A stretch of 31,337 nt of DNA from Bacillota bacterium (GTDB lineage Bacteria > Eremiobacterota > SpSt-956 > JAKJGF01). The stretch is from positions 1-31,337 of the forward strand of contig JAKPQU010000159.1 in assembly GCA_029555925.1 (NCBI GenBank), in the 5' to 3' direction. The position numbers were made by a program, and so were the translations under genes. Below, in pieces: positions 2,385 through 26,501 of the stretch; position 1 is the stretch's first letter, and each line of letters opens with the position of its first letter. The notes beneath the pieces were generated by a model, which was not told the origin of the DNA, ran no database searches, and saw nothing but the letters and a program-made list of their open reading frames with translations.

Positions 2385-3428
2385 ATGGATTTTAAGGATT
2401 ATTATAAAATTCTTGGTATAGGCAAGAATGCAACAGATAAGGATATAAAAAAAGCCTATAGAAAGCTCGCGAGACAGCTTCATCCTGATATAAACCCGGG
2501 AGATCCGAAAGCAGAGGAAAGATTTAAAGATCTCAATGAAGCGTACGAGGTGTTATCGGACCCTGCAAAAAGGGAAAAATATGATCTCCTGGGACAGAAC
2601 TGGAAAACCGGGGGATTTAATACGGGTAGATATGGTGGAGAAGGAGCGTCTGATTTCTTTAAAAATTTCAGAACGTCGTCGGTGAAGAGCGGTGCCGCCT
2701 CATTCGGCGGATTCGGTGATTTCAGTGATTTCTTTAATATGTTCTTCCGAAACGGAGCAGGCACTGTTACTACCGGCGACTTTTTTACCGACAATTTTGC
2801 CGGAGGAAAGGGAGATGTGGAATATCAGATAGAGATAACTTTGAGAGAAGCCTATAACGGCACGGAAAAATCATTTCAAATGCAAAGACAGGAAAAATGT
2901 TCTTCCTGTCATGGCACGGGAAGGGTAAATAATAATCTCTGTCGTAACTGCGGAGGAAGCGGAATGATTTCTACCAGCAGACAGATAGAAACTAAAATCC
3001 CCCCTGGAGTTAGAAACGGTTCCAGGATAAGGTTGAGGGGAGAAGGGGAAGTGAAAAGAGACGGCAGAAGGGGGGATATGTATTTAAAAGTAAAGCTTAT
3101 ACCCCATGATTTCTTTGAACTTAAAGAAAATGACCTTTACTGTGTTGTGCCTATAACTGTTACGGAAGCGGCTCTCGGTGCGGAAATTAAGGTGCCAAGT
3201 CTTAACGGTAAAGATCTGCAGATGAAAATACCGCCAGAAACTCAGAATGGCAGGAAATTCAGACTGAGCGGCATGGGAATGCCAAATCTTAAAGAAGGTT
3301 TGCCCGGTAATATGATTGTCGAGGTAAAGATTGTCATGCCCCAGGGGCTTACCGAGAGAGAGAAAGAGCTTTTTGCCGAAATGGCACGTATCCGTAAGGA
3401 TAATCCCAGGGTCTATACCAGGAATTGA
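2385..3428 (+). CDS. dnaJ: DnaJ-family co-chaperone with a single zinc centre
   Basis: Hsp40 co-chaperone that delivers substrates to DnaK and stimulates its ATPase. From the ATG at 2385 it has 347 residues: a J-domain (about 3-68) with the essential HPD at 33-35, a Gly/Phe-rich linker (about 72-140), a cysteine region and two C-terminal substrate-binding beta domains. Only two CxxCxGxG motifs are present (C172/C175 and C186/C189), enough for one zinc site; classical DnaJ has four motifs and two sites. A GTG at 2376 opens the same frame, but the AGGTGA ribosome-binding site (2374-2379) overlaps it and is well spaced for the ATG at 2385, which also gives the usual short N-terminus before DYYKILG. 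dnaK follows directly, with its own promoter. Confidence 0.93.
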
Positions 3429-3471
3429 TAATTATTAAGATATTCTAATTTATATTTTTTTTGTAAAATAC

Positions 3472-3500
3472 TTGACAATAATAGACTAAACTTTTATAAT
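3472..3500 (+). promoter_or_regulatory. Consensus sigma70-type promoter of dnaK
   Basis: TTGACA (3472-3477), 17-bp spacer, TATAAT (3495-3500). The block 3470-3500 matches the dnaJ promoter block 2311-2341 at 30 of 31 positions (G2322 against A3481). The two chaperone genes therefore probably respond to the same regulator while being transcribed from separate starts. Confidence 0.87.
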
Positions 3501-3545
3501 GACAATAGAGATAATAAATAACAGAAATTATGGAGGTGTCAATAT

Positions 3546-5396
3546 ATGTCTAAAATAGTAGGTATAGATCTCGGAACTACAAATTCGGTAGTGGCAGTTA
3601 TGGAAGGAGGAAAGCCTGTTGTTATTCAGAACGCCGAAGGAAGTCGTCTCACTCCTTCTGTTGCAGGTTTCTCAAAATCAGGGGAAAGGCTTGTAGGACA
3701 GCTTGCCAAACGGCAATCTGTATTAAATCCTGAAAATACAGTATCTTCTATAAAAAGGAAAATGGGAACCGCCGAAAAGGTAAATATTAAGGGGAAAAAC
3801 TATACACCACAGGAAATTTCGGCTATGATTCTGAGAAAGCTCGCAGATGATGCAGGAACATATCTTGGTGAAAAGGTGACGAAAGCAGTCATAACAGTGC
3901 CTGCATATTTTGATGACTCGCAGCGTCAGGCCACAAAAGATGCGGGCAAGATTGCAGGTCTTGAGGTGCTGAGGATTATAAATGAACCTACAGCTGCATC
4001 TCTTGCCTACGGTCTTGACAGAAAAGGCTCTGAGACAATACTTGTGTGGGATCTCGGAGGAGGAACCTTTGATGTGTCAATACTCGATGTGGGAGATGGA
4101 CTTTTTGAAGTTAAATCTACAAGCGGAGATACTCATCTCGGAGGAGATGACTATGATGAACGGCTTGTAAAGTATATATGTGAAGAATTTAAAAAAGAAC
4201 AGGGAATTGATCTGACGAAAGACAGACAGGCCATGCAGAGACTTACAGAAGCAGCGGAAAAAGCAAAATGCGAACTTTCTTCTATGTTCGAAACTGCAAT
4301 AAGCCTGCCTTTTATAACGGCAGATCAGAATGGCCCGAAACATCTGGAGATGAAGATCACAAGAGCAAAGTTTGAGGAACTTACCGCAGATTTGACGGAA
4401 AGAACAATTGTACCATACCATCAGGCTCTGTCAGATGCCGGTATAACGGAAAAAGATATACATGAAGTTGTCCTTGTAGGCGGCTCTACCCGTATGCCCT
4501 GTATTGAAAGTCTGGTAAAGAAACTTACCGGAAAAGAACCTCACAAAGGAGTAAATCCTGATGAAGTAGTAGCCGTGGGGGCAGCCATACAGGCAGGAGT
4601 TCTCGGCGGAGAAGTGAAAGATGTGGTTCTCGTTGATGTTACCCCTCTGTCTCTCGGCGTGGAGACACTGGGAGGTGTTTCTACGGTGCTTATACCAAGA
4701 AATACATCTATTCCGACAAAGAAAAGTGAAATATTCAGTACTGCCGCAGATGGTCAGACCTCTGTTGATGTTCATGTGCTGCAGGGGGAAAGACCTATGG
4801 CACGAGATAATAAAACTCTTGGTATGTTCCGTCTGGACGGAATTCCTCCTGCACCCAGGGGATTGCCGAAGATTGAAGTTACCTTTGATATTGACTCAAA
4901 CGGTATAGTAAATGTATCTGCAAAGGATATGGCTACAGGCAGAGAACAGCATATTACCATAACGGCCAGTACTAACCTGTCTAAAGCAGATGTGGAGAAA
5001 ATGGTCAGAGAATCCGAAGCTCATGCAGAGGAAGACAGGAAAAAGAAAGAAGAAATTGAAGTGAAGCACAGCGCCGATTCACTCCTGTATCAGATGGAAA
5101 AACAGATTAAAGATTATGGAGACAGGATTTCTTCTCAGGACAGGCAGAATATTGAAGGTGCGATGGAAGCACTCAGGGATGCCATAAAGAGTGATAATAT
5201 AGACAGGATTAAAAAGGCTGAAGAAGATTTGAAACAGGCTTCCTATAAAATGGCGGAAAGTCTTTATTCAGCAGGCGGTTCAGGGGCGGCAGGAGGTTAT
5301 GGCCCACCTCCCGGCACAGGATACGGCCCACCTCCGGGAGGCGTTGCACCTCCGGGCGGAGATAATGTTGTGGATGCAGAGTTCAGAGCAAACTAA
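3546..5396 (+). CDS. dnaK: Hsp70 chaperone DnaK
   Basis: ATP-dependent Hsp70 chaperone, 616 aa, close to the usual 610-640. The N-terminal ATPase domain opens with [14 protein letters not shown] phosphate-loop sequence ([17 protein letters not shown]), followed by [29 protein letters not shown] and [13 protein letters not shown]. The substrate-binding domain contains [14 protein letters not shown], and a helical lid follows. The tail is Gly/Pro-rich, with repeated GYGPPPG, and ends VVDAEFRAN, a variant of the common C-terminal acidic motif. The start is decided by a GGAGGTG site eight bases upstream of the ATG. It works with the DnaJ encoded just upstream; no grpE or hrcA gene is in the window. 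Confidence 0.98.
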
Positions 5397-13612: not shown

Positions 13613-14641
13613 TCAGCCAACCTGCTGGCCGTTTGCTCTATACCATTTACTCACATCCGTGCCTGCTGCATATACGGAATCTCCGTCAGCCTGCATTGCA
13701 TCGGCCATATATCCGTCATAACCGCTGCCTGTGAAATTGCCGCCTTCTCCGTGGATATGTTCATTGCCATTATATATATCAATACTCTTAACTTCTCCGT
13801 TTGCACTTTCTGCGTTCATTGTAATTTTTGTTCCGTCAGGAAGATTGAAGCTCATGGTCTTGTCTTTCCAGTCCCATCTCTGACCATTGCTCTGATCTAC
13901 ATGGGGGTCACCCCATATCTTGGTATTGCCTGTGGTCTGATAACCGGGCATCTGTCCTGCCATTGCAAAAGATCCGAATGGAGTTGCTCCTGCCATTGCA
14001 AAGGAACCTCCTCCTACCTGACCCATTCCGCTGATATTGACTGTTGAGCCGCTGTAACTTATTTTGAATCCGCCCGGTGTAGTAACTTCATTGCCCTGCT
14101 GTCTGAGTCCGCCCATTCCGCCGTGAAGTTTCTGAGCCTGGCCCATACCCATCATGCCGCCCATGCCCATCATGCCCATCATGCCGCCCATCATACCTCT
14201 TGAAATAGCTCCACCTATGAGGCCGCCCAACATACCACCTAACATCATACCTGCCATGCCTGGCATACCCATCATGCCCAAGCCGAGCATACCGTAATTA
14301 CCCATGGCTCCCATGCACTGCATTAATTGATCTGCTCCGGGAAACATTCCTCCGCCGAACATAGGATTGAATCCGGGCATGTATCCCGGTAACATTCCGC
14401 CCATATTCATAGGACTGCCTATCATTCCACCTCCCATGCCCACTGAGCCCATACCCATCATGCCGGGCATTATCATGCCTGCCATCATACCGGCCATACC
14501 GCCGCAGCATCCTCTTGCCATATTTCCCATCATCATCATCATCTGCATTGCCTGGAATGGCATCCCGACTCCCATCATTGCTGACATCCCGAAGGAACCG
14601 AACATACCCTGTACATTAAATGAAGCACCTATTCCTATCAT
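13613..14641 (-). CDS. Met/Gly-rich protein with DUF1521/MIIA autocleavage-type domain
   Basis: 342 aa. Residues 1-180 are extraordinarily Met/Gly-rich (by my count 51 Met in 180) with repeats such as GMMGMMGMGGMMGMG. Residues about 238-342 match the DUF1521 pattern: KIWGDPHVDQSNGQRWDW, then DGTKITMNA. GDPHVD (244-249) is the self-cleavage motif known from the metal-ion-inducible autocleavage (MIIA) domain of Bradyrhizobium NopE1, which is cut between Asp and Pro when calcium binds. Cleavage here between D245 and P246 is inferred from that family. No signal peptide is visible; NopE1 is a type III effector, but no secretion genes occur in this window. Start: an AGGAGG site sits eight bases before the ATG. 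A divergent Met/Gly-rich gene starts 192 bp away, and both N-termini have the pattern M-x-G-I-G-x-x-F. Confidence 0.85.
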   Translation of the reverse strand: MIGIGASFNVQGMFGSFGMSAMMGVGMPFQAMQMMMMMGNMARGCCGGMAGMMAGMIMPGMMGMGSVGMGGGMIGSPMNMGGMLPGYMPGFNPMFGGGMFPGADQLMQCMGAMGNYGMLGLGMMGMPGMAGMMLGGMLGGLIGGAISRGMMGGMMGMMGMGGMMGMGQAQKLHGGMGGLRQQGNEVTTPGGFKISYSGSTVNISGMGQVGGGSFAMAGATPFGSFAMAGQMPGYQTTGNTKIWGDPHVDQSNGQRWDWKDKTMSFNLPDGTKITMNAESANGEVKSIDIYNGNEHIHGEGGNFTGSGYDGYMADAMQADGDSVYAAGTDVSKWYRANGQQVG

Positions 14642-14704
14642 AAAAAAAACCTCCTGATTACATTAATTAAAAATTTCGATACTAATATATCACGACATTT
14701 TAAA

Positions 14705-14771
14705 AAAAGTAAATATTTTATAACATTGAAAAAAAAATTTTTTTCAATCTTATGAAAAGCTATTTACTTTT
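14705..14771. promoter_or_regulatory. Large AT-rich inverted repeat between the divergent Met/Gly-rich genes
   Basis: Arms 14705-14735 and 14738-14771 are complementary except for two mismatched positions and a 3-nt bulge. The outer 11 bp (14705-14715 with 14761-14771) and the inner TTGAAAAAAA/TTTTTTTCAA are perfect. It lies in the 192-bp divergent intergenic region. The A-tracts predict intrinsic DNA bending. It could be a symmetric operator for co-regulation of both genes, or a hairpin blocking read-through on either strand. No convincing -35/-10 pair was found beside it. Confidence 0.7.
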
Positions 14772-14833
14772 ATAAAAAAACAGTGATAAATTTAAAGGGA
14801 ATTTATTAAAATTTTTTAAAGGAGTGGATATTA

Positions 14834-16123
14834 ATGTACGGAATAGGTTCACAATTTTCAGCATCAATGGCCTACAGTACGATTATAGGCGGCGGAATGG
14901 GAATGGGCATGATAGGCGGCGGATTTTCCAGTATAATGATGCAACGCCTTATGCAGCTTCAAATGATGATGGGTGCAATGATCGGTATGCAGAATCCTAT
15001 GATGATGCAGGGGATGATGCCCGGTATGATGGGAGAAATGGGCGGTATGGAATCTATGGGAGAAATGGGTATGATGGCAGGACTCGGACAGATGGGCGGT
15101 ATGGATCCCTTCGGTGGTATGGGTGGATTTGGCGGTATAGATCCATTTGGCGGGGGTATGCTCGGTCAATCTATGGGAGCAATCATGGATGGAGGTTTTG
15201 CCGGAGCAGGTGCATTTGCCGGAGCAGGTGCAGGAGCTTTTGCCGGTATAGATCCGCTAACAGGCGGCGCATTTGCCGGAGCAGGCGCACTGGCCGGAGC
15301 AGGTTCTTTCGCAGGTGCCGGCGCATTACAGGGTGGAGGCTCTTTTGCCTTTGCTTTCTCCGCAGCAGGTCAGGCACAGGAGAGCTCTGCAGTCGGAGCA
15401 GTCGGTTCTTTTGGCTTCCAGAACAGAATTGAAAAGGATCCCTTTGGCAGCGGCGGTACAGGTATGGGAGGTAATAGAAATTCCAATCTCGCCAATTCAC
15501 CTGCTGCAACTCTTGCCATTAATAATATAATGGCTTCAGGTGTGAGTGATTTTGATAAAGTGGCAACAGAATTGAAAGAAAGATATGGTATAGAAGCCAA
15601 GGTTGATACAGTTGACGGTAAGAAATCATTAAAACTTGCCAATGGCGATGTTATATCCGACGGTAACGGAAATAATATCCTTGACAAGGCTGACTATGAT
15701 ATGGACGGAGCCACAAAACAGATAAAAGAAAAATATGGTATAAGTGCAAATCAATTTGATCTTATGTATAACAAGAAACTTACTCCTGAGGAAAGACAGA
15801 AAAAGATTGAAGCAGTTCAGAAAGAAAAAGAAGCAGATTTTAAAGCACAGTTGAAGGAACAGGGATATAAACCGGAACAGATAGAGGACATTATGAAAGG
15901 TTATCAGGGTGGCGGAGCATTCGGAGGAGGCTTCGGAGGAGGCTATAATCCGATGGGCGGTATGGGCGGATTTGATCCTATGGGTGGTATTGGTGGATTT
16001 GACCCGATGGGCGGCATGGGTGGCCCCGGCATGATGGGCGGTTCCCCCATGATGAATATGATGCGTATGTACATGTCAGTTATGCAGATGATGATGACTG
16101 CCATGGCCATGTCTGCTTTTTAG
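14834..16123 (+). CDS. Met/Gly-rich repetitive protein with EF-hand-like loop
   Basis: 429 aa, not assigned to a known family. Residues 1-115 are Met/Gly-rich with DPFGGMGGFGG-type repeats. Residues about 120-170 are Ala/Gly repeats (GAGAFAG and variants). A folded-looking segment (about 224-355) contains KVATELKERYGIEAKV and later TKQIKEKYGISANQF, two related helical motifs. Between them lies DGNGNNILDKAD (276-287), which fits an EF-hand-like calcium loop with oxygen ligands at 1, 3, 5, 9 and 12. A charged helix follows. The C-terminus returns to GGFDPMGG repeats and ends with a Met-rich helix. A strong AAAGGAGTG site precedes the ATG. It is paired head-to-head with the DUF1521 gene, and a coiled-coil gene follows 13 bp downstream. 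Confidence 0.85.
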   Translation: MYGIGSQFSASMAYSTIIGGGMGMGMIGGGFSSIMMQRLMQLQMMMGAMIGMQNPMMMQGMMPGMMGEMGGMESMGEMGMMAGLGQMGGMDPFGGMGGFGGIDPFGGGMLGQSMGAIMDGGFAGAGAFAGAGAGAFAGIDPLTGGAFAGAGALAGAGSFAGAGALQGGGSFAFAFSAAGQAQESSAVGAVGSFGFQNRIEKDPFGSGGTGMGGNRNSNLANSPAATLAINNIMASGVSDFDKVATELKERYGIEAKVDTVDGKKSLKLANGDVISDGNGNNILDKADYDMDGATKQIKEKYGISANQFDLMYNKKLTPEERQKKIEAVQKEKEADFKAQLKEQGYKPEQIEDIMKGYQGGGAFGGGFGGGYNPMGGMGGFDPMGGIGGFDPMGGMGGPGMMGGSPMMNMMRMYMSVMQMMMTAMAMSAF

Positions 16124-16136
16124 AGAGGTATAATCT

Positions 16137-16499
16137 GTGACCAAACAGGAAATCAAAGAGAAGATGAAGGAATTTACAGGCTATATTCTTCAGGAGAAGG
16201 AAATTAAAGAAAAGCTTCTGAAGCTCAGGCTTGTAGCAAGTGATATGAAGATCCTGAAGGACAGAATAGCAGAACAGGACAATCTTCTTGCAGAAATTGA
16301 GTCTCTTCGGAAAGAAAAAATGTTACCTCTCATCGAAGAAATAGCACAATTTATCAGTAAAAGGCAGAAAGAAATAATGGAGGATGAATCTATTACGGCA
16401 AAAGATTTGGACTCTATGGTGGAAAATGCCAGGAAAGACCTGGAAAATGATAAAGTCCTTAAAGATTTTTTAGAAAAATTTAAAACGGCTATGCAATAG
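16137..16499 (+). CDS. Small coiled-coil protein downstream of the Met/Gly-rich gene
   Basis: 120 aa, almost entirely helical and highly charged, with heptad-like Leu/Ile spacing from about residue 20 to 80 (for example LLKLRLVASDMKILKDRI). No Cys, no signal peptide, no known family. GTG start with AGAGAGG seven bases upstream. It begins 13 bp after the Met/Gly-rich gene and ends before a strong terminator, so the two form an operon. Size, charge and position would suit a dedicated chaperone or binding partner for the repetitive protein, but this is inference from context only. Confidence 0.75.
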   Translation: MTKQEIKEKMKEFTGYILQEKEIKEKLLKLRLVASDMKILKDRIAEQDNLLAEIESLRKEKMLPLIEEIAQFISKRQKEIMEDESITAKDLDSMVENARKDLENDKVLKDFLEKFKTAMQ

Positions 16500-16520
16500 A
16501 GCCGGTGATTATAGAGAAGA

Positions 16521-16562
16521 GGGGCTTGATTGGTCAGGTAGATTAATCAAGCCCTTTTTTCG
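16521..16562 (+). terminator. Intrinsic terminator of the Met/Gly-rich operon
   Basis: GGGCTTGATT (16522-16531) pairs perfectly with AATCAAGCCC (16545-16554) across a 13-base loop and is followed by a run of T (16555-16560). Confidence 0.9.
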
Positions 16563-16575
16563 TGATTATTAAGAA

Positions 16576-16646
16576 GTGAGTAGTAAGTCGTGAATAGTAA
16601 GAAATAATTACTTTTCACCATTCACTTTTCACTATTCACTTTACTT
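16576..16646. repeat. Inverted pair of heptamer arrays
   Basis: Left arm 16576-16603: GTGAGTA, GTAAGTC, GTGAATA, GTAAGAA (GTRANNN). Right arm 16605-16639: TAATTAC, TTTTCAC, CATTCAC, TTTTCAC, TATTCAC (NNNTYAC), with a degenerate unit after it. Period 7 is exact within each arm, and the arms can pair to form a hairpin just upstream of the radical SAM gene. Confidence 0.9.
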
Positions 16647-16662
16647 AAAACAGGAGGATATA

Positions 16663-18504
16663 ATGAACAAGGAAGACTTTAACATTACCTTTATTTTCCC
16701 GCCTCAATGGACTCCTCAGAACCCTCATTATGCCATGACATCCATTGCTGGTCATCTCAGACATCATGGATATAATGTCACCCCGAAGGATCTCAATGTG
16801 GAATTTTACGATAAAATCCTTACTCCCCGCTATATTCAATATTCCAGAGAGAAAACCTTACTGGAATATGATTATTTAAAACTTAAGGTTTTAATGAAGT
16901 GTCTCACTGAAGAAGAGGATGAGAATTTAGAGATAGAATCTGCAAAGTTACTATATATTGAAAAATATCTGAAAGAAGAGCAGGAAGCCTGGAATAATAC
17001 CCATAAACTGATAGATGAGGCAGTATCTGTTACAAGAGATCCTGAAAGATTTTACGAGGCAAATGTTCTTGTTGATGCCCTTATTATCATTGATGATGCA
17101 TTAAAGATTATATCTTTGCCTTATTATCCGGAAAGATTATGTTTTAACGATTTTCGTCATACCAAAATAGCTTTTAATATGAAAGATATTCTATCATATT
17201 GTACAGATAAGAAAAGAAATATGTTTTATGATTTTTATGAAGAGGTAATTCCTGAAATAGTCGATAATAAGCCCGATTTGATAGCAATATCAATAAATTC
17301 TTTCAGTCAGGTTCTTCCCGGTCTGACCCTTGCAAAAATGCTTAAAGAGAAAAATGGTAATTTTCATATTAATATAGGAGGAAATTTCTTTGGTCGTGTC
17401 AGGGATAATCTCATGGAACTTCCCGAATTTTTCGAACATTTCTGTCATACTCTCGTCATGGGTGAAGGGGAAAAATTTATGTTAGAACTCTGTGATACTG
17501 TAAGATTAAAAGAAGATTTACATAAAGTACCTTCCACACTTTATTTAAAGGATGGCAGAGTAATATATACTTATAAAGGTCAGCCTGAAAAGATGAATAA
17601 TCTTGGCATTCAGGATCTGGCAGGTCTTAAATTATATAAATATTTTACCTCTCATATAGTTCTGTGTATACAGAGCAGTAAAGGCTGTTACTGGGGTAAA
17701 TGCAGTTTCTGCGATTCCGATTTCGGTGTGGAACATGACGGAAAATCTCTTGACAGACTGGTCATGGAAATAAAATATCTGAGGGATAAATATAATATAA
17801 GACATTATGAATTTATGGATGAATCCATAAATCCTGCTTATATGAAATCCATGGCAGAAAGGTTTATTGAAGAAAAACTCGATATAAAATGGTTCAGTAA
17901 CGGAAGGCTTGAAGAAGACTTTACTCCTGAACTGCTCGCTTTACTTCAGAAATCAGGACTTACCATGGTGCTCTGGGGATTTGAATCAGGCAATAAAAGG
18001 ATTATGGATTTAATTAATAAAGGCATTAATGTGGAAAAAAGATATGATATACTGAAAGCATCCAGTGATTGTGGCATATGGAATTTTGCTTATATATTTT
18101 TCGGTTTTCCTACAGAGACAAAAGAAGAGGCCATAGATACAATAAATGCCATGTGTGAACATAAAGATATAATTCATTCTTATGGAAGAAGTGTTTTTAC
18201 CCTTGGTAAACACAGCAAACTGAGAGATGATGCAAAAAAATTCGGCATAGTTGATATTATAGAAGACAATCAGGAACTTTCTACAAATCTCTATTATAAA
18301 TCTACATCAGGTATGACGGATAAAGAAGTTGATTCTATGATAGATCTGTGTATAGAAAAATGTAAAGATGCCTATGGAATGCCTCTGTGGATGTATCTTA
18401 AATACAGGGAAAATTTACACCTTTATATAGCAAAATACGGTGCAGATTATGTGAAAAATTATCCTACAAAGAAGTGGTATATGCAGGATCTTGTTGTGTG
18501 GTAG
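16663..18504 (+). CDS. B12-binding-type radical SAM protein
   Basis: 613 aa, soluble. The N-terminal part resembles a cobalamin-binding-type Rossmann domain (FIFPPQW near the start, SIAGHLRHHGYNV, then INIGGNFFGRV at 236-246 and VMGEGEKF at 265-272), with a helical insert at about 60-160. The radical SAM core follows with GCYWGKCSFCDSDF. Its cysteines C342, C347 and C350 are spaced CX4CX2C rather than the usual CX3CX2C. Later core motifs include HYEFMDE and LWGFESGNKRIMDLINKG. The likely chemistry is methylation or another radical modification; the substrate is unknown. An AGGAGG-like site precedes the ATG. It stands alone between two heptamer hairpins, so it is probably monocistronic. Cobalamin genes lie 3-8 kb away on the other strand. 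Confidence 0.85.
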   Translation: MNKEDFNITFIFPPQWTPQNPHYAMTSIAGHLRHHGYNVTPKDLNVEFYDKILTPRYIQYSREKTLLEYDYLKLKVLMKCLTEEEDENLEIESAKLLYIEKYLKEEQEAWNNTHKLIDEAVSVTRDPERFYEANVLVDALIIIDDALKIISLPYYPERLCFNDFRHTKIAFNMKDILSYCTDKKRNMFYDFYEEVIPEIVDNKPDLIAISINSFSQVLPGLTLAKMLKEKNGNFHINIGGNFFGRVRDNLMELPEFFEHFCHTLVMGEGEKFMLELCDTVRLKEDLHKVPSTLYLKDGRVIYTYKGQPEKMNNLGIQDLAGLKLYKYFTSHIVLCIQSSKGCYWGKCSFCDSDFGVEHDGKSLDRLVMEIKYLRDKYNIRHYEFMDESINPAYMKSMAERFIEEKLDIKWFSNGRLEEDFTPELLALLQKSGLTMVLWGFESGNKRIMDLINKGINVEKRYDILKASSDCGIWNFAYIFFGFPTETKEEAIDTINAMCEHKDIIHSYGRSVFTLGKHSKLRDDAKKFGIVDIIEDNQELSTNLYYKSTSGMTDKEVDSMIDLCIEKCKDAYGMPLWMYLKYRENLHLYIAKYGADYVKNYPTKKWYMQDLVVW

Positions 18505-18643: not shown

Positions 18644-19399
18644 ATGAGTAATGAACAGGTGAAATATTTCAGGATAGGAAAAATCAATAAAAATGCAACA
18701 GTAGTAGGCATGTGGGAAATAGATGCTGATAAATTACCACACGATTATATAAAATACTTTTATGATGATAAAAACAGGGTTGTAAGATTCGAGAAATATG
18801 AAAGGGAATTTCCCGGTGCTTCCTATAGAATTTATAAGTATGAAGGTGATTCTAATAGTGTAAAGGTTTCGGAATGGTTTGACAGGTTTGGTAATCTGAA
18901 AGGTATTCACAGATATTACTGTGATGAAAAAGGTCTGATGGTAAAAAGAGAGGAACTGGACGGGCAGAATAATGTAAAATATTATATACTGAGCCGGTAT
19001 GATGAGCAGGAACGTCTTATTGAAGAAGCATGGTATAATCCTGATGACAGTCTTGATAAAAGAGACAGGCTCATTTACGACAGCCCTGATTTATCTGAAC
19101 TTACCCCATCTTCTGAGGAAAAATATAATTCGTCCGATGAACTTGACGGAGTTTTCCATTATAAATGGGACGAAAGATACAATTTACTGGAAAAAAAATG
19201 GTGCAATAAAGCTGGTGAACTTAAAAGTTATTACACCTACAAATATAATGATAAGGATCTTCTGACATGGATTGGTCTCTATCATGAAGATGATACGCTG
19301 CAGATGAGTCAGAATTTTGCATATGATGAAAAAGGTAATAAGATTTCGGAGGAAATATTTGACGGGAAAGGAAATCTTGTAAAACGTAATACCTGGTAG
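18644..19399 (+). CDS. YD/RHS-repeat-like beta protein, function unknown
   Basis: 251 aa. It consists of repeated units with the pattern Y-x-Y-(D/E)-x-x-x-x-L/V-x-x-x-E-x-(W/Y), for example YFYDDKNRVVRFEKYE, YDEQERLIEEAWYN, YKWDERYNLLEKKWCN, YKYNDKDLLTWIGLYHEDD and YDEKGNKISEEIFDGKGN. This resembles single-unit RHS/YD repeats or related beta-hairpin repeats, but no full RHS core or toxin domain is present. There is no signal peptide, so it may be cytoplasmic. AAAGGAAG precedes the ATG. Heptamer hairpins flank it on both sides, and it converges with the zinc-ribbon gene. Confidence 0.75.
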   Translation: MSNEQVKYFRIGKINKNATVVGMWEIDADKLPHDYIKYFYDDKNRVVRFEKYEREFPGASYRIYKYEGDSNSVKVSEWFDRFGNLKGIHRYYCDEKGLMVKREELDGQNNVKYYILSRYDEQERLIEEAWYNPDDSLDKRDRLIYDSPDLSELTPSSEEKYNSSDELDGVFHYKWDERYNLLEKKWCNKAGELKSYYTYKYNDKDLLTWIGLYHEDDTLQMSQNFAYDEKGNKISEEIFDGKGNLVKRNTW

Positions 19400-21316: not shown

Positions 21317-22369
21317 TTATATCTGCTCCTGTCCGACTGCTTCTTTGCAGGTAAACATTTCATTTATTATCTTACATGCCCCTTCTAGTATAAAGAATGA
21401 CATTGTGCAGCCCGTACCTTCTCCGAGCCTCATATCCGTAGATACTACAGGTTCCATAGAAAGAAATTCCATAAGTTTTTTTCCTCCTTTTTCCGATGAA
21501 ATATGGGAAGGGAACATAAAATTTCTTGTTTTTTTATTGAGTTTTATAGCCATAAGGGCTGCCACACCTGATATAAATCCATCTATTACCACCGGTATCC
21601 TCCGTGCAGCACATCCTAGATAACACCCCACAAGACCTGCTATATCCAGTCCTCCCACCTTTGATAACACATCCACCGGGTCAGAAGGGTCGGGATGATT
21701 TAATTCTATCGACTTTTTTATGACCTCTATTTTCCTCTTTATTCCTTCATCTGAAAGTCCTGCACCAATGCCTGTTATATCTTCAATTGCAGTACCAGCA
21801 TAAAGAGAAAAAATTGCACTGCTTGTAGTAGTATTTCCTATGCCTGCTTCACCTGTTCCTATCAACTGATACCCCTTTTGAGACGCTTCGAAAACTGCTT
21901 CTATGCCTGTCTCTATAGCTCTTATTGTTTCTTCTCCTGTCATGGCAGGGCCTTTCATAATATTTCCTGTGCCATATCTGATTTTTTTATTGATTATGCC
22001 GGGACAGTGCAGGTCTGCATTAATTCCTATGTCTATAACCATAAGGTCTGAACCTGCATGCCTTGCAAGGACACTGATACCTGTACCGCCTGCAACTATA
22101 TTTTTTGTTATGGAAGCCGTCGTCTCTATTCTTTTAACACTCACTCCTTCTTCTATAACACCGTTATCTGCACCCATTATGATAATCAATTTTTTTGAAA
22201 GATTGTTCCTGACTTTACCGGTAATACCTGCAAGCTGTACTGACATAGTTTCAAGCTTCCCCAGGCTGCCAGGCGGTTTAAAGAGACTCTTCTGTCTGTT
22301 CCTGGCTTCAGACATAGCTTCCTCATAGAGGTCACCCACAGAATTTAATGTTTCTTCAAATAATTTCAT
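21317..22369 (-). CDS. cobT: Nicotinate-nucleotide-dimethylbenzimidazole phosphoribosyltransferase
   Basis: CobT activates the lower-ligand base of cobalamin, making alpha-ribazole phosphate from nicotinate mononucleotide. The 350-aa protein has the family's KPPGSLGKLE, IGEAGIGNTTT-type motif (GTGEAGIGNTTTSS) and RLGEGTGCTM. From the ATG at 22369, the conserved glutamates fall at 174 and 317, the numbers I recall for the Salmonella CobT active site. A GTG at 22378 is in frame, but it overlaps the GGGAGG ribosome-binding site, which is well placed for the ATG. It is the last gene of the leftward cobalamin series, 182 bp after cobC, with a palindromic heptamer array in between. Confidence 0.95.
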   Translation of the reverse strand: MKLFEETLNSVGDLYEEAMSEARNRQKSLFKPPGSLGKLETMSVQLAGITGKVRNNLSKKLIIIMGADNGVIEEGVSVKRIETTASITKNIVAGGTGISVLARHAGSDLMVIDIGINADLHCPGIINKKIRYGTGNIMKGPAMTGEETIRAIETGIEAVFEASQKGYQLIGTGEAGIGNTTTSSAIFSLYAGTAIEDITGIGAGLSDEGIKRKIEVIKKSIELNHPDPSDPVDVLSKVGGLDIAGLVGCYLGCAARRIPVVIDGFISGVAALMAIKLNKKTRNFMFPSHISSEKGGKKLMEFLSMEPVVSTDMRLGEGTGCTMSFFILEGACKIINEMFTCKEAVGQEQI

Positions 22370-22442
22370 TCTTTTCACCCTCCCTTACTGAGTACCTCAA
22401 CAGGTAAATTCATAACCATTTATAAATTATTTATATGAGAAT

Positions 22443-22470
22443 CGTAACGCGTTACGCGTAACGCGTTACG
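22443..22470. repeat. Perfect 28-bp palindrome built of heptamers
   Basis: Alternating CGTAACG and CGTTACG units form a sequence identical to its own reverse complement over 28 bp. It contains both orientations of the heptamer core (GTAA and TTAC). It lies in the cobC-cobT gap. A further TGACCG/CGGTCA inverted repeat is at 22497-22511, and a degenerate pair of TCAC heptamers at 22523-22536. Confidence 0.9.
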
Positions 22471-22560
22471 GGAGGAACAAATTCTCAACTTCGTTGTGAC
22501 CGAACCGGTCATGGTTGTTTTATCCTCACTATTCACTGTTTATAGTTTTTGGATACTCTT

Positions 22561-23172
22561 TTACCTGCTGTCATAATAAGATCTTTGCCTTATTTCCGTT
22601 AGAATAGCGAAGCCATCCAGAATTTCTATCCTTGTAAGACTTCCGAGAGAAACACGAAAATGCCAGTGAGTATTTATGTTTTCTCCTATGTATTTTGACA
22701 GGATACATCTTATGGGGCCGCTGTGAGTAACTATAAGTATTTTACTGCTTTTACAGGCTTCAATGATTTCGTCCGACGTTTTTGTAACCCTGTCATAAAA
22801 ATCAATCATACTTTCTCCGCCCGGTATCCTGTAAGAAAGCCAGTTTTCAGTCCATTCTTTATATTCTTCAGGATAAAGAGATCTGATTTCTTCAAAGGAT
22901 ATATCCTGCCATCGACCGAAATTCAGTTCTCTCAGACCGTAAGAAGCTATTATGGAAACAGAATGTACACTGTTAATTATTTCGGCAGTATGAAGAGAGC
23001 GCCTGAGATCACTTGAATAAATGACATCTATTTTTTCGCCGGCAAGAACGTCTTTCAATCTTTCTGCTTCCTTTATGCCTCTGTCATTTAATCCAGCTTC
23101 ATTCCAGCCGCAGTAAAGCTGTTTTTTATTTATGTCTGTTTCACCATGACGGATCAGTATAAGTTCTGTCAT
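22561..23172 (-). CDS. cobC: Histidine phosphatase, probable alpha-ribazole phosphatase
   Basis: 203 aa, histidine (phosphoglycerate mutase-like) phosphatase. It has LIRHGET at the N-terminus (phospho-accepting H9), the GGESMIDFYDRV region and the second catalytic histidine in VTHSGPIRCIL. This fold serves several pathways; its place between cobS and cobT makes dephosphorylation of alpha-ribazole 5'-phosphate or adenosylcobalamin 5'-phosphate the best call. The ATG has only a weak ribosome-binding site, and the heptamer hairpin lies about 15 bp upstream of it. Confidence 0.85.
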   Translation of the reverse strand: MTELILIRHGETDINKKQLYCGWNEAGLNDRGIKEAERLKDVLAGEKIDVIYSSDLRRSLHTAEIINSVHSVSIIASYGLRELNFGRWQDISFEEIRSLYPEEYKEWTENWLSYRIPGGESMIDFYDRVTKTSDEIIEACKSSKILIVTHSGPIRCILSKYIGENINTHWHFRVSLGSLTRIEILDGFAILTEIRQRSYYDSR

Positions 23173-23186
23173 ATAAATTCCTTATT

Positions 23187-23258
23187 CGTGACGCGTGACG
23201 CGTGACACGTGACGGGGTTATATCCATGCGCATTACGCATTACGCATTACTCATTACG
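23187..23258. repeat. Inverted pair of heptamer arrays
   Basis: Left arm 23187-23214: CGTGACG-type units, four copies with one variant (CACGTGACG). Right arm 23228-23258: GCATTAC-type units, four copies with one variant. The gap lies between cobS and cobC. Left is GTRA and right is TYAC, matching the order of the other paired arrays. Confidence 0.9.
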
Positions 23259-23330
23259 AGGTCATTATGGATAGTTATGAAGCTAACTATAAATAATGAC
23301 AGGTTATGAAATTAAAAACATCATAGGAAG

Positions 23331-24104
23331 CTAAAACAGAGACTGCATGACTGTTATAAGAGACAATTTTTCCATAACAAGAACAGTAAAGAGAAGAACT
23401 ATCTCGGACATCTCGGTACATGCTCCCAGTATATCTCCTGTAGTGCCTCCGATTTTAGAATATATAAATTTTGTAAAAATCAGGGTAAATATAATTGTTG
23501 TTGCCACAGGGAAAATCAAGGAAGGCCCTATGGCAAAAAAAGCAATTAATACAGTAGTGCCGGTGCAGATCAGAATTTCTCTGAAACCGGTAAAATCGAT
23601 TGTAGCACTGCCCATACCGGATTTTTCTCTTGCATACTCAGATGTGCCGGCACACCATATCATACCCAGTCTTCCGAACAGAGGCATTACAAAGATTACT
23701 TTTCCCAGCAGGAACGTTGAAATACTCAGGATAAATAGTATCTTTAAAAGCAAAAGGAAAAACAGTGCCATGCCGCCGAACGTTCCAAGCCTGGGATCCT
23801 TCATGATCTCAAGCATTTTTTCTTTCGGTCTGTAACTGAAAATACCGTCGAAGGTATCTGCAAGGCCGTCAAGATGAAGACCTCCTGTAATAAGTACTCC
23901 TCCTATTACGGTAAATACGGCGGATACAGTTTCACTGGAGAGTAATGAGGAAATATAGTATACTGCCATAAGAAAAGCACCTATTATTGCGCCTATAAAC
24001 GGTATATAAATGATTCCCTTCCCGAATTCTTCTGTCGTGAATTCTACTTTAAAAGGAACAGGTATGGTAGTAAAAAATTGAAGCATGATTAAAAATCTGT
24101 TCAT
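23331..24104 (-). CDS. cobS: Adenosylcobinamide-GDP ribazoletransferase
   Basis: CobS joins activated cobinamide to alpha-ribazole (phosphate) at the membrane, the last joining step of cobalamin assembly. 257 aa, with about six hydrophobic segments and the family signature GGLHLDGLADTFDG (residues 74-87), followed by MKDPRLGTFGG. Its ATG overlaps the cobA stop codon by four bases (ATGA), indicating translational coupling. No cobU or cobY, needed to make the GDP-activated substrate, is visible in this window, so it must lie elsewhere or be replaced. Confidence 0.95.
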   Translation of the reverse strand: MNRFLIMLQFFTTIPVPFKVEFTTEEFGKGIIYIPFIGAIIGAFLMAVYYISSLLSSETVSAVFTVIGGVLITGGLHLDGLADTFDGIFSYRPKEKMLEIMKDPRLGTFGGMALFFLLLLKILFILSISTFLLGKVIFVMPLFGRLGMIWCAGTSEYAREKSGMGSATIDFTGFREILICTGTTVLIAFFAIGPSLIFPVATTIIFTLIFTKFIYSKIGGTTGDILGACTEMSEIVLLFTVLVMEKLSLITVMQSLF

Positions 24105-24643
24105 AATTCTATCCCTTCTCTCGAACTTATTTTTCTGTCTGCAGGGTGTTTTATCTTTTTCATTTCTGTTACAAGATCAGCCATAAGAACAAGCTCTTCC
24201 GGCGCATTCCTTCCTGTCAGAATTAATTCCATATGGTAAGGTTTTCTCTCTATCAATTCTTTTATTTCTTCCAGAGAAACAAGTTTATTTTGAAGTGCCC
24301 CCAGGATTTCATCCAGCACAAGTATGTTACATTCTTCTTTATCTATGGTTTTTCTTGCGAAGTCCATGGCAAGGGATATTTCTTTTTTCAATTCTTTTTT
24401 CTCTTCATCATTTAAAGTCCAGAAAAATTTTTTTTGATGTTCGAAACGATAAATGACAAAAGAGGGATGAAGTTTTTCTACTGAATGTAATTCTCCCGAG
24501 TCAAGGCATTTTAAAAACTGTATGAACCTCACCGTTAAACCATGACCTGCCGCACGTAAAGCCTGGCCCAGGGCTGCAGTGGTTTTACCCTTCCCGTCAC
24601 CTGTATATATCTGAACAAGTCCGGAAGATAATTGTTTTTTCAT
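24101..24643 (-). CDS. cobA: Cob(I)alamin adenosyltransferase, CobA/BtuR type
   Basis: Transfers the adenosyl group of ATP to corrinoid cobalt. 180 aa, close to the family's usual 180-200. P-loop GDGKGKTT at residues 15-22, then FIQFLK and the NILVLDEI motif. The frame opens further upstream at 24694, inside the radical SAM gene, but an AAGGA site lies seven bases before the ATG at 24643, so that start is chosen. The gene then begins ten bases after the radical SAM stop codon, which places both in one operon, with cobS overlapping at the other end. Confidence 0.95.
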   Translation of the reverse strand: MKKQLSSGLVQIYTGDGKGKTTAALGQALRAAGHGLTVRFIQFLKCLDSGELHSVEKLHPSFVIYRFEHQKKFFWTLNDEEKKELKKEISLAMDFARKTIDKEECNILVLDEILGALQNKLVSLEEIKELIERKPYHMELILTGRNAPEELVLMADLVTEMKKIKHPADRKISSREGIEL

Positions 24644-24653
24644 AAAATAATCC

Positions 24654-26501
24654 TTACTCTTTCCACTTGATTGCAAGAGAAAGATATTTAGCATCTTCCC
24701 CTGTGATGAAACCTCTGTCCGAAAGAGGATTTATTATTTCCAGAATTTCTTCGTTACTGTATTTTTTTCCTCTATATTTTTCTGCAATATTCTTTAATTC
24801 GGAAAGGGGTTTTATAGAATCGCAGGCAAGATAGAGGAGTCTTTCCAGACCTGAAATAATTGTAATATCTTCTTTTGCTCCGGGTCTTTTATCACTTATA
24901 ATAAGGTGTTTTCTGTAGTCCATATATATAAGGCTGCTTTCAGGATAAACATGGATCCACTTTTCAATCGCTTCTTTCACGGATTTTGTATATTGTTCCG
25001 TCTCCTGCGGAATTTTATAGGTGAAGAAAAATGCCAGATTATTTATTGCATCTTCTGTAAATCCGGGATAAATATATCTGTAAGCACCATATGGCTTAAG
25101 CTCTGAAACCCCGAAATCTTCAGGGGTTTCAAAATAGGGGCTGAAACGGCTCACATATATGGAACCATAATCTTTAGGAGGTTCCAGGTGGCTTAAAAGA
25201 GGTATTAACTCTGACATAAGTCGGTAATCTTCAGAACGTTCTCCCGGAAAACCCCATAATAAATTCCAGTGAACATCTATATTAAATTCTCTGGCCCATT
25301 TTAAAAACTGTATGTTCTGAAGAGATGTAACTCCTTTTCTCATAAGTTTCAGCACATGTGTAGACAGACTCTCTATACCGGGTTGAAGATGGCTCTGTAC
25401 CCTGGCGCTTACAAGCTGTAATTGTTCTTTTGTCACATTTGCCTTCACATGGTGGAGTAACAGTTTATCTGATTTTATATGGGGGAGAAAGTCGTTAAAA
25501 TATTTCATGTCAACAATATTATCTACATGGACAACGATACATTCGGGATATTTTTCAGTAAGATATGAAAATTCTTCAAGGGCTCTGCCGGGATGTTTGC
25601 TTCTGAAATGAATGTCCTGGCCGTAACCGCAGAAAGTGCATCTTTTCTTTTCACCCCACCAGCAGCCGCGGGATGTCTCAAAATGTATGACAGGCCTGTA
25701 GAATTTATTGTTTATTATGTCTGGATTTTTAGAGAGAGAACTATTGTTCCACTGTTCGAAAAAATCATCATAGTCAGGGCAGGGGAGACTGTCCATATCT
25801 GTCACGGACGGTGTGTTTACATAATAGATCTTTTCTATATTTTCTTTTGTATAAACCCCCTGAAGGTCTGATATGGATTTACCTGAAATCACCCTTTGCA
25901 CTATTTCCGAAAATACGAGATCTCCCTCTCCGGATACAACGGCATCTACAGAAGGAAAATTTTTTATGATTTCCGCTCCCATAATACCTTCACAGTTACA
26001 ACCTCCGAATAATATAAAGATTTCAGGCGATTGTTCTTTAATTTTTCCGGCAAGTGAAAGAGAAGATAACTGCTGCCCGTAATTACTGCTGAAGGCCACT
26101 ATATAAGGTTTACACTCAAGGATTTCCATAAGACAATATTCCAGAAAATCATTTACTTTCTTTTTTACAGAGAGAATTTCGTCAATAATATCTTCAGGCA
26201 CTCTTATATGCTTATATTCTTTAAGTCCTCCAAGCAATACATCTTTTATATAATTATCTGAGATAGAAGGCGAAAAAATCCATTCACCTGTCTGACACAT
26301 AGCAGAAGGGTAATTGTTGGCTATCATATTATTCAGACTGGGAGAACAGATTTTTTCTATAAAATCCAGAGAAAAATACCTGATTTTACAGGATACCTTC
26401 TGTTTAAGTGATGATTTTAACAGACTGAGTCCTATGGAAGGCCAGGAAAAATAATCAAAAGGCATATTGATTAACAGTACATCATATGGTATTTTTTTCA
26501 T
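24654..26501 (-). CDS. B12-binding-type radical SAM protein, RiPP-maturase-like, heading the cob cluster
   Basis: 615 aa. The N-terminal cobalamin-binding-like domain includes FILFGGCNCEG (162-172) and VVSGEGD (188-194). The radical SAM core has TSRGCWWGEKKRCTFCG: C280, C288 and C291, spaced CX7CX2C. This SRGCWWG...CTFCG form is typical, as I recall, of radical SAM enzymes annotated as RiPP maturation protein 1. Later core motifs include LLHHVKAN and WNLLWGFPGE. The C-terminus (about 535-610) looks like a winged-helix region, perhaps a peptide-recognition element. No candidate precursor peptide was found nearby. An AAGAAGG-type site precedes the ATG. It is the first gene of the leftward unit, ten bases before cobA; the cob genes could supply its cofactor. 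Confidence 0.88.
   Translation of the reverse strand: MKKIPYDVLLINMPFDYFSWPSIGLSLLKSSLKQKVSCKIRYFSLDFIEKICSPSLNNMIANNYPSAMCQTGEWIFSPSISDNYIKDVLLGGLKEYKHIRVPEDIIDEILSVKKKVNDFLEYCLMEILECKPYIVAFSSNYGQQLSSLSLAGKIKEQSPEIFILFGGCNCEGIMGAEIIKNFPSVDAVVSGEGDLVFSEIVQRVISGKSISDLQGVYTKENIEKIYYVNTPSVTDMDSLPCPDYDDFFEQWNNSSLSKNPDIINNKFYRPVIHFETSRGCWWGEKKRCTFCGYGQDIHFRSKHPGRALEEFSYLTEKYPECIVVHVDNIVDMKYFNDFLPHIKSDKLLLHHVKANVTKEQLQLVSARVQSHLQPGIESLSTHVLKLMRKGVTSLQNIQFLKWAREFNIDVHWNLLWGFPGERSEDYRLMSELIPLLSHLEPPKDYGSIYVSRFSPYFETPEDFGVSELKPYGAYRYIYPGFTEDAINNLAFFFTYKIPQETEQYTKSVKEAIEKWIHVYPESSLIYMDYRKHLIISDKRPGAKEDITIISGLERLLYLACDSIKPLSELKNIAEKYRGKKYSNEEILEIINPLSDRGFITGEDAKYLSLAIKWKE

Follow-up and report, generated by a model that had tools for sequence, protein, structure and literature searches.

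The VWD domains of mucins, VWF and FCGBP undergo autocatalytic cleavage at a GD|PH bond. Radical S-adenosylmethionine (radical-SAM) enzymes of the vitamin B12 (cobalamin) type are better known for acting on short peptides and small molecules. According to passages of PMC9259500, EreB, a B12 radical-SAM enzyme found in Eremiobacterota, C-methylates a ribosomal peptide. Among the MIIA proteins, NopE1 and VIC_001052 have been linked to type III secretion (passages of PMC6506597, PMC8367979 and PMC9185962), and an excerpt of PMC6506597 describes a MIIA domain that ends 102 residues past the cleavage Asp and still partly cleaves. Here we compare these systems with a locus in a 31,337-nucleotide stretch of DNA from an Eremiobacterota genome (contig JAKPQU010000159.1 of assembly GCA_029555925.1), the whole of which we call the window. 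Two open reading frames (ORFs) stand head to head: P1, a 342-aa Met/Gly-rich protein with a C-terminal DUF1521 (MIIA-type) domain (13613..14641, minus strand), and P2, a 429-aa Gly/Met/Ala-rich protein with a conserved core and an EF-hand-like loop (14834..16123, plus strand). P2 is followed on the same strand by P3, a 120-aa partner predicted to be helical (16137..16499), and by a radical-SAM enzyme of 613 aa with a B12-binding-type region (16663..18504). A preliminary description had placed the head-to-head ORFs and the 120-aa partner ORF, with all coordinates, exactly where we find them, but the module it proposed left out the conserved third gene, that of the radical-SAM enzyme. The comparison shows that P2, P3 and the cobalamin-type radical-SAM enzyme recur together as a module, strictly so within one phylum and also in a second; P1 is best read as a DUF1521 protein of a local type, a lineage-specific neighbour of that module.

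The searches covered 149 genomes of the first phylum (Vulcanimicrobiota or Eremiobacterota by database names), 195 genomes of a second phylum, that of genome G151, and, for P2, 23 further genomes beyond both, picked for DUF1521. The genomes of the relatives are mostly metagenome bins, whose completeness is not given in the tables. In the first phylum, a profile of the P2 core had 15 matches in 10 genomes, and a sixteenth P2 (G037:C17), ended by a contig end, matches another P2 at 98% identity over 156 aa. The P3 profile had 16 matches in 11 genomes, exactly at the P2 places. With the enzyme as query (E ≤ 1e-40, the 8 best candidates being scored in many genomes), 22 matches were obtained in 14 genomes. 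Fourteen are full-length, score 553-715 bits and all lie at P2-P3 places; a 412-bit fragment opens contig C211 of G003 and probably continues a gene cut at the end of C224; and the remaining seven, at 149-270 bits, lie away from P2-P3 places. All three genes are present at 15 of the 16 first-phylum places, some of them cut by contig ends. Their order is mostly P2-P3-enzyme, with a divergent P2 in L102 and the order P3-enzyme-P2 in L113 and L114. Over 13 cassettes, window included and the incomplete or fused L107, L110, L116 and L117 left out, the correlations between the identity matrices of the three proteins are 0.83-0.91 (Mantel p 0.0002, the lowest value possible with 5000 permutations), an agreement that would also be expected from shared descent alone.

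The module extends beyond this phylum. Among 25 DUF1521-bearing genomes, P2 was found in two, G151 and G154 (both labelled Deltaproteobacteria), and P3 in G151 alone, which is also the only one with an enzyme match above 165 bits (501 bits). Across the second phylum P2 occurs in 6 of the 195 genomes; four of the six places (L134, L140, L141 and L142) also have P3 and the enzyme, at 501-651 bits, and L143 has P2 and P3 and then reaches the contig end. Window included, all three genes are found together at 20 of 23 places, the 22 P2 neighbourhoods from other genomes being stretches of 3-17 kb, some ended by contig ends. Among the best 7995 candidates (those with most shared words) of about 5.8 billion proteins there were 43 P2 relatives, with the database labels Candidatus Eremiobacteraeota, Vulcanimicrobiota, Firmicutes, Chloroflexi or plain bacterium.

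The enzyme matches the radical-SAM family PF04055 at 63.7 bits (cut-off 29.5), and its C-x4-C-x2-C motif is present in all four enzyme ORFs of the second phylum and in 15 of 16 from the first, the sixteenth ORF being truncated ahead of the motif. Its best NCBIfam family is TIGR03975, the maturation C-methyltransferases of ribosomally synthesized and post-translationally modified peptides (RiPPs), at 115.9 bits, which is under the cut-off of 281.85. TIGR04014 (methyl-coenzyme M reductase glutamine C-methyltransferase) is matched weakly, at 58.5 bits against a cut-off of 360. That the top-scoring family is one of RiPP C-methyltransferases argues against a substrate that is a lipid or small molecule, with P2 and P3 as a calcium-responsive regulator or scaffold. 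The relatives of B12 radical-SAM enzymes do include lipid and phosphonate enzymes, seen here as weaker NCBIfam matches, and the EF-hand-like loop kept in most P2s would suit a regulator or scaffold. However, the sole ORF family besides the module to recur in more than two of 17 stretches is YD-repeat-like, and we regard this alternative as distinctly unlikely. The YD-repeat-like protein of the window (251 aa, 18644..19399, plus strand; labelled by eye) lies downstream of the enzyme, and a profile built from it and three homologues finds an ORF in 10 of the 23 cassette stretches, window included, although some of these ORFs are long overlapping frames. Because of this recurrence it may be a fourth, optional member of the module. 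Such ORFs lie near the enzyme in L102 (2773-3558), L103 (2318-3037), L104 (3339-4031), L106 (8439-9257), L140 (3413-4177) and L142 (1965-3077).

P2 is 22.6% Gly and 13.1% Met. The preliminary description had stressed extreme Met/Gly content in both divergent proteins, and the bias is real in P1 and P2; its figure of nearly 30 percent Met, however, applies only to P1 residues 1-172 (29.1%), and Met-richness is not a trait of the P2 family. Since Met content ranges from 1.2 to 13.1% across 16 P2 members, the methionine of this P2 looks like lineage-specific colouring. The low-complexity flanks drift in composition while the core (residues about 195-325, 15416..15808, plus strand) stays, which suggests that the core, not methionine, carries the function. 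Within it, the acidic loop noticed earlier, DGNGNNILDKAD (residues 276-287, 15659..15694, plus strand), does fit the first 12 positions of an EF-hand loop. In the first phylum, counting the window, all 16 P2s fit the EF-hand loop pattern over 12 positions, where shuffled residues would give 0.11 for the set, and 10 of the 16 fit it over 13 positions (0.03 expected). Over both phyla, 18 of 22 P2s fit (that of the window and 17 of 21 others). This conservation is partly selected, because the P2 profile includes the loop. Neither P2 (19 members scanned) nor P3 (15 members scanned) has a convincing Pfam family, and the 13 Pfam families listed for the 19 P2s at E ≤ 1 include no EF-hand family.

The partnership of P2 and P3 that had been proposed is borne out: they are kept at the same places in relatives, and at two places, L110 and L116, they are one ORF with the P3 part C-terminal. 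AlphaFold models the L110 fusion with confidence in the core (about residues 131-200) and in P3 (about 271-360), although not as a whole (mean predicted local distance difference test score, pLDDT, 72.6; predicted template modelling score, pTM, 0.38). In the window, P3 begins with GTG 13 nt past the P2 stop. As a separate observation, the P3 of L143 (7642-8762) has a C-terminal run of many near-identical RTGSTSQQPALN-type repeats that goes on to the contig end. Upstream of the fusion in L110, at 3366-4322, lies a Gly/Gln-rich ORF whose end stretch contains HEVGH and looks zinc-peptidase-like by eye.

A small, predicted helical P3 beside a P2 with low-complexity flanks could also be the chaperone of an export substrate, in which case the radical-SAM enzyme would mature the exported protein or its partner. 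An export apparatus is indeed widespread in the phylum, with PF01313 in 132 of 149 genomes and PF00771 (SctV/FlhA) in all 19 tested; but an apparatus that is nearly universal does not discriminate between readings, and flagellum and injectisome are not told apart by these families. Moreover, no Pfam chaperone family was found among 25 of the 38 weak matches listed for 15 P3s, and no SctV-like ORF in the 16 first-phylum cassette stretches. We therefore consider the export pair unlikely. The PF00771 search also gave a result of its own. In the 19 genomes (G001, G017, G018 and 16 others; loci L128-L130), many ORFs, besides full-length copies, match the cytoplasmic half alone (model positions about 320-656), with up to 19 matches in one genome. 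This domain of the export gate has apparently spread to form a protein family of its own.

P1 is of another kind. A hidden Markov model search placed PF07481 (DUF1521), which had been suggested for it, at residues 235-300 (13742..13939, minus strand, as are the P1 features below) with an E-value of 1.3e-9 and 38.8 bits against a cut-off of 23.6. The cleavage-type motif GDPH, also described earlier, lies at residues 244-247 (13901..13912), with presumed self-cleavage after Asp245 by the position given for a relative in passages of PMC6506597; 97 residues follow this Asp. A DGxxxDAxxxDG motif (residues 309-320, 13682..13717) is a candidate metal site; a DUF1521 protein from Photobacterium (L008) shows it, by eye, with identical spacing. 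The C-terminal part (13616..14122) is predicted to be a single all-beta domain (pLDDT 90.1, pTM 0.81), a prediction from which metal dependence cannot be read. Overall P1 is 24.9% Gly and 17.3% Met, and residues 1-172 (14126..14641) are 29% Met and 30% Gly with nearly no charge. The most hydrophobic 19-residue stretch of this half begins at residue 128 and looks glycine-zipper-like by eye; GxxxG spacing in the P1 of the window is not above shuffles (16 vs. 15.2).

A profile search of 148 genomes of the first phylum returned 28 matches to P1 in 14 genomes. The closest P1 found in a genome is that of G001 (L001, 66%), where two of the three P1 matches are N-terminal only. GDPH is present in 17 of the 19 matches examined for it, with a profile that itself contains the motif; likewise, part of its conservation in L002-L050 follows from a search pattern that contained GDPH. 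The glycine zipper family PF13488 reaches or exceeds its cut-off of 25 in the N-terminal half of three of ten phylum relatives scanned (L056, 25.0; L057, 27.9; L058, 26.6), with weak matches in others. Several phylum relatives have Gly/Ala-rich glycine zippers in the half that is Met-rich here, which hydrophobic packing fits better than a metal (copper) store or oxidant sink. A methionine content of 29.1% might have suggested such a store or sink, but together with the uneven Met content of the P2 family the zippers make it highly improbable. An SctV/FlhA-like ORF lies on the fetched stretch at 15 of 49 DUF1521 loci, which agrees with the connection of NopE1 and VIC_001052 to type III secretion. 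P1 is probably exported and, to judge from its domain and motifs, likely self-cleaving. One DUF1521-type protein of G003 (L061 187-1911) also carries an EF-hand over the Pfam cut-off.

The preliminary description had taken P1 and P2 as the two halves of a system for release or assembly that calcium triggers. Their genes are head to head, they share compositional bias and similar starts, and each has a putative calcium element. The common M-x-G-I-G start is real (MIGIG in P1, MYGIG in P2) but weak, as a P2 relative 85% identical to that of the window starts MYGVS. P2 in two of the 25 DUF1521-bearing genomes also favours a link, as does co-occurrence of P1 and the triad over the 149 genomes, which is above chance (6 genomes shared of 14 and 11, one-sided Fisher p 8e-5). 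However, this association loses significance when only the 25 genomes of 4 Mb or more are counted (p 0.16), and the pair is not kept in relatives: none of the 22 P2 neighbourhoods from other genomes (16 of the first phylum, 6 of the second) contains a P1 relative, G001 has P1 without any P2 or P3 match, and five triad genomes have no P1 match. Indirectly, the contigs of three P1 clusters are 11-52 kb long, yet the P2 search matches only three contigs (1.5, 1.1 and 97 kb). The nearest thing to linkage is a P1 relative in G004:C68, with GDTH, not GDPH, about 12 kb from a triad. A single P1-P2 system is therefore very unlikely, more so than either alternative weighed above for P2 and P3.

We prefer, with a probability of roughly 45%, to see two separate things side by side: P2 and P3 as the dedicated substrate or recognition pair of the radical-SAM enzyme, and P1 as an exported neighbour cut in response to calcium. 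For P2 and P3, substrate and adaptor are the most likely roles, held with moderate confidence. The two would act as one complex, as their fusion in one ORF at two places suggests, with P2 the protein modified, most likely by C-methylation, and P3 a helical adaptor presenting it to the enzyme; calcium would steady the P2 core where the EF-hand-like loop is intact. P1, once outside the cell, would meet calcium or a similar ion, whereupon its C-terminal domain would fold and cut between Asp245 and Pro246, so that the hydrophobic N-terminal part and a fragment of 97 residues come apart.

Several observations weigh against this account. Both P2-P3 fusions come from one metagenome bin (G003), a P3-like stretch without P2 was found in G009 by single-sequence search (E 8e-4, unconfirmed by the P3 profile), G029:C144 has P2 and P3 without the enzyme, and G154 has a P2 (L133) with no P3 anywhere and only a distant enzyme relative elsewhere (157 bits). 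In the window itself a terminator-like hairpin (16516..16560, plus strand) parts P3 from the enzyme gene. The enzyme's match to the B12-binding family PF02310 is, at 22.4 bits, under the cut-off of 32.1, although a full TIGR03975 member at 24654-26501 of the window is under it as well (18.7). No obvious target residue for modification was found in P2, and the loop pattern fits only two of the six second-phylum P2s, the other four having Ala at position 3. As for P1, DUF1521 reaches its cut-off in just two of ten phylum relatives scanned, and the window has no SctV-like ORF, other secretion genes not having been sought there. The P1 domain has 16 acidic residues in 170, compared with 42 in 171 for VIC_001052, and truncated MIIA domains respond far more weakly to calcium (both from passages of PMC6506597).

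The rest of the locus can be described briefly. The divergent P1 and P2 are separated by an AT-rich intergenic region of 192 bp (14642..14833), both starts are preceded by Shine-Dalgarno-like sequences (by eye), and a terminator-like hairpin lies 3' of P1 (13567..13602, minus strand). Between P3 and the enzyme gene, at 16575-16650, inverted GTGAATAGT/ACTATTCAC repeats resemble, by eye, a small palindromic repeat element. The TIGR03975 member at 24654-26501 is a second B12 radical-SAM gene (559 bits), and beside it, at 21317-24694, are ORFs that resemble cobalamin-synthesis genes by eye.

With the MIIA proteins NopE1, NopE2 and VIC_001052, P1 shares a DUF1521 match over the cut-off, the GDPH site and an Asp-rich C-terminal motif, and its length past the cleavage Asp is similar to that of the partly active truncated domain (passages of PMC6506597). 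It differs from them in a far less acidic domain, a Gly/Met-rich N-terminal half, an uncultured host and a window without an SctV-like ORF. The P1 domain also weakly resembles VWD domains, which cleave themselves at the same GD|PH bond; the comparison with FCGBP gives an E-value of 5.2e-11, a value that sums five repeats, and Pfam gives no VWD match, only DUF1521 and Big_15 below its cut-off. A bolder interpretation would take the locus as a modification cassette of two phyla, with a large calcium-loop P2 and its adaptor P3 as radical-SAM substrate in place of a short peptide, and P1 as a sign that MIIA and animal VWD domains share a calcium-linked fold for Asp-Pro self-cleavage. We think this rather doubtful, though less so than the alternatives weighed above. 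If true, a shared origin or mechanism of self-cleavage would provide a structural frame for MIIA domains and make their metal sites predictable.

The cassette of P2, P3 and the enzyme is a clean case of guilt by association, two of its three parts being without a Pfam family, and it names a candidate substrate of a B12 radical-SAM enzyme that can be tested directly. Like the RiPP C-methyltransferases (TIGR03975; EreB), the enzyme combines a radical-SAM domain with a B12-binding-type N-terminal region. Unlike them, it has the Cys motif C-x4-C-x2-C, and its neighbours are not a short precursor peptide but a P2 of at least 284 aa and a helical P3. Precedent for a large protein as substrate of this enzyme class comes from TIGR04014, a B12 radical-SAM enzyme whose name implies such a target; that target, however, is a subunit of an enzyme, in contrast to P2, which is of low complexity and has a dedicated partner.

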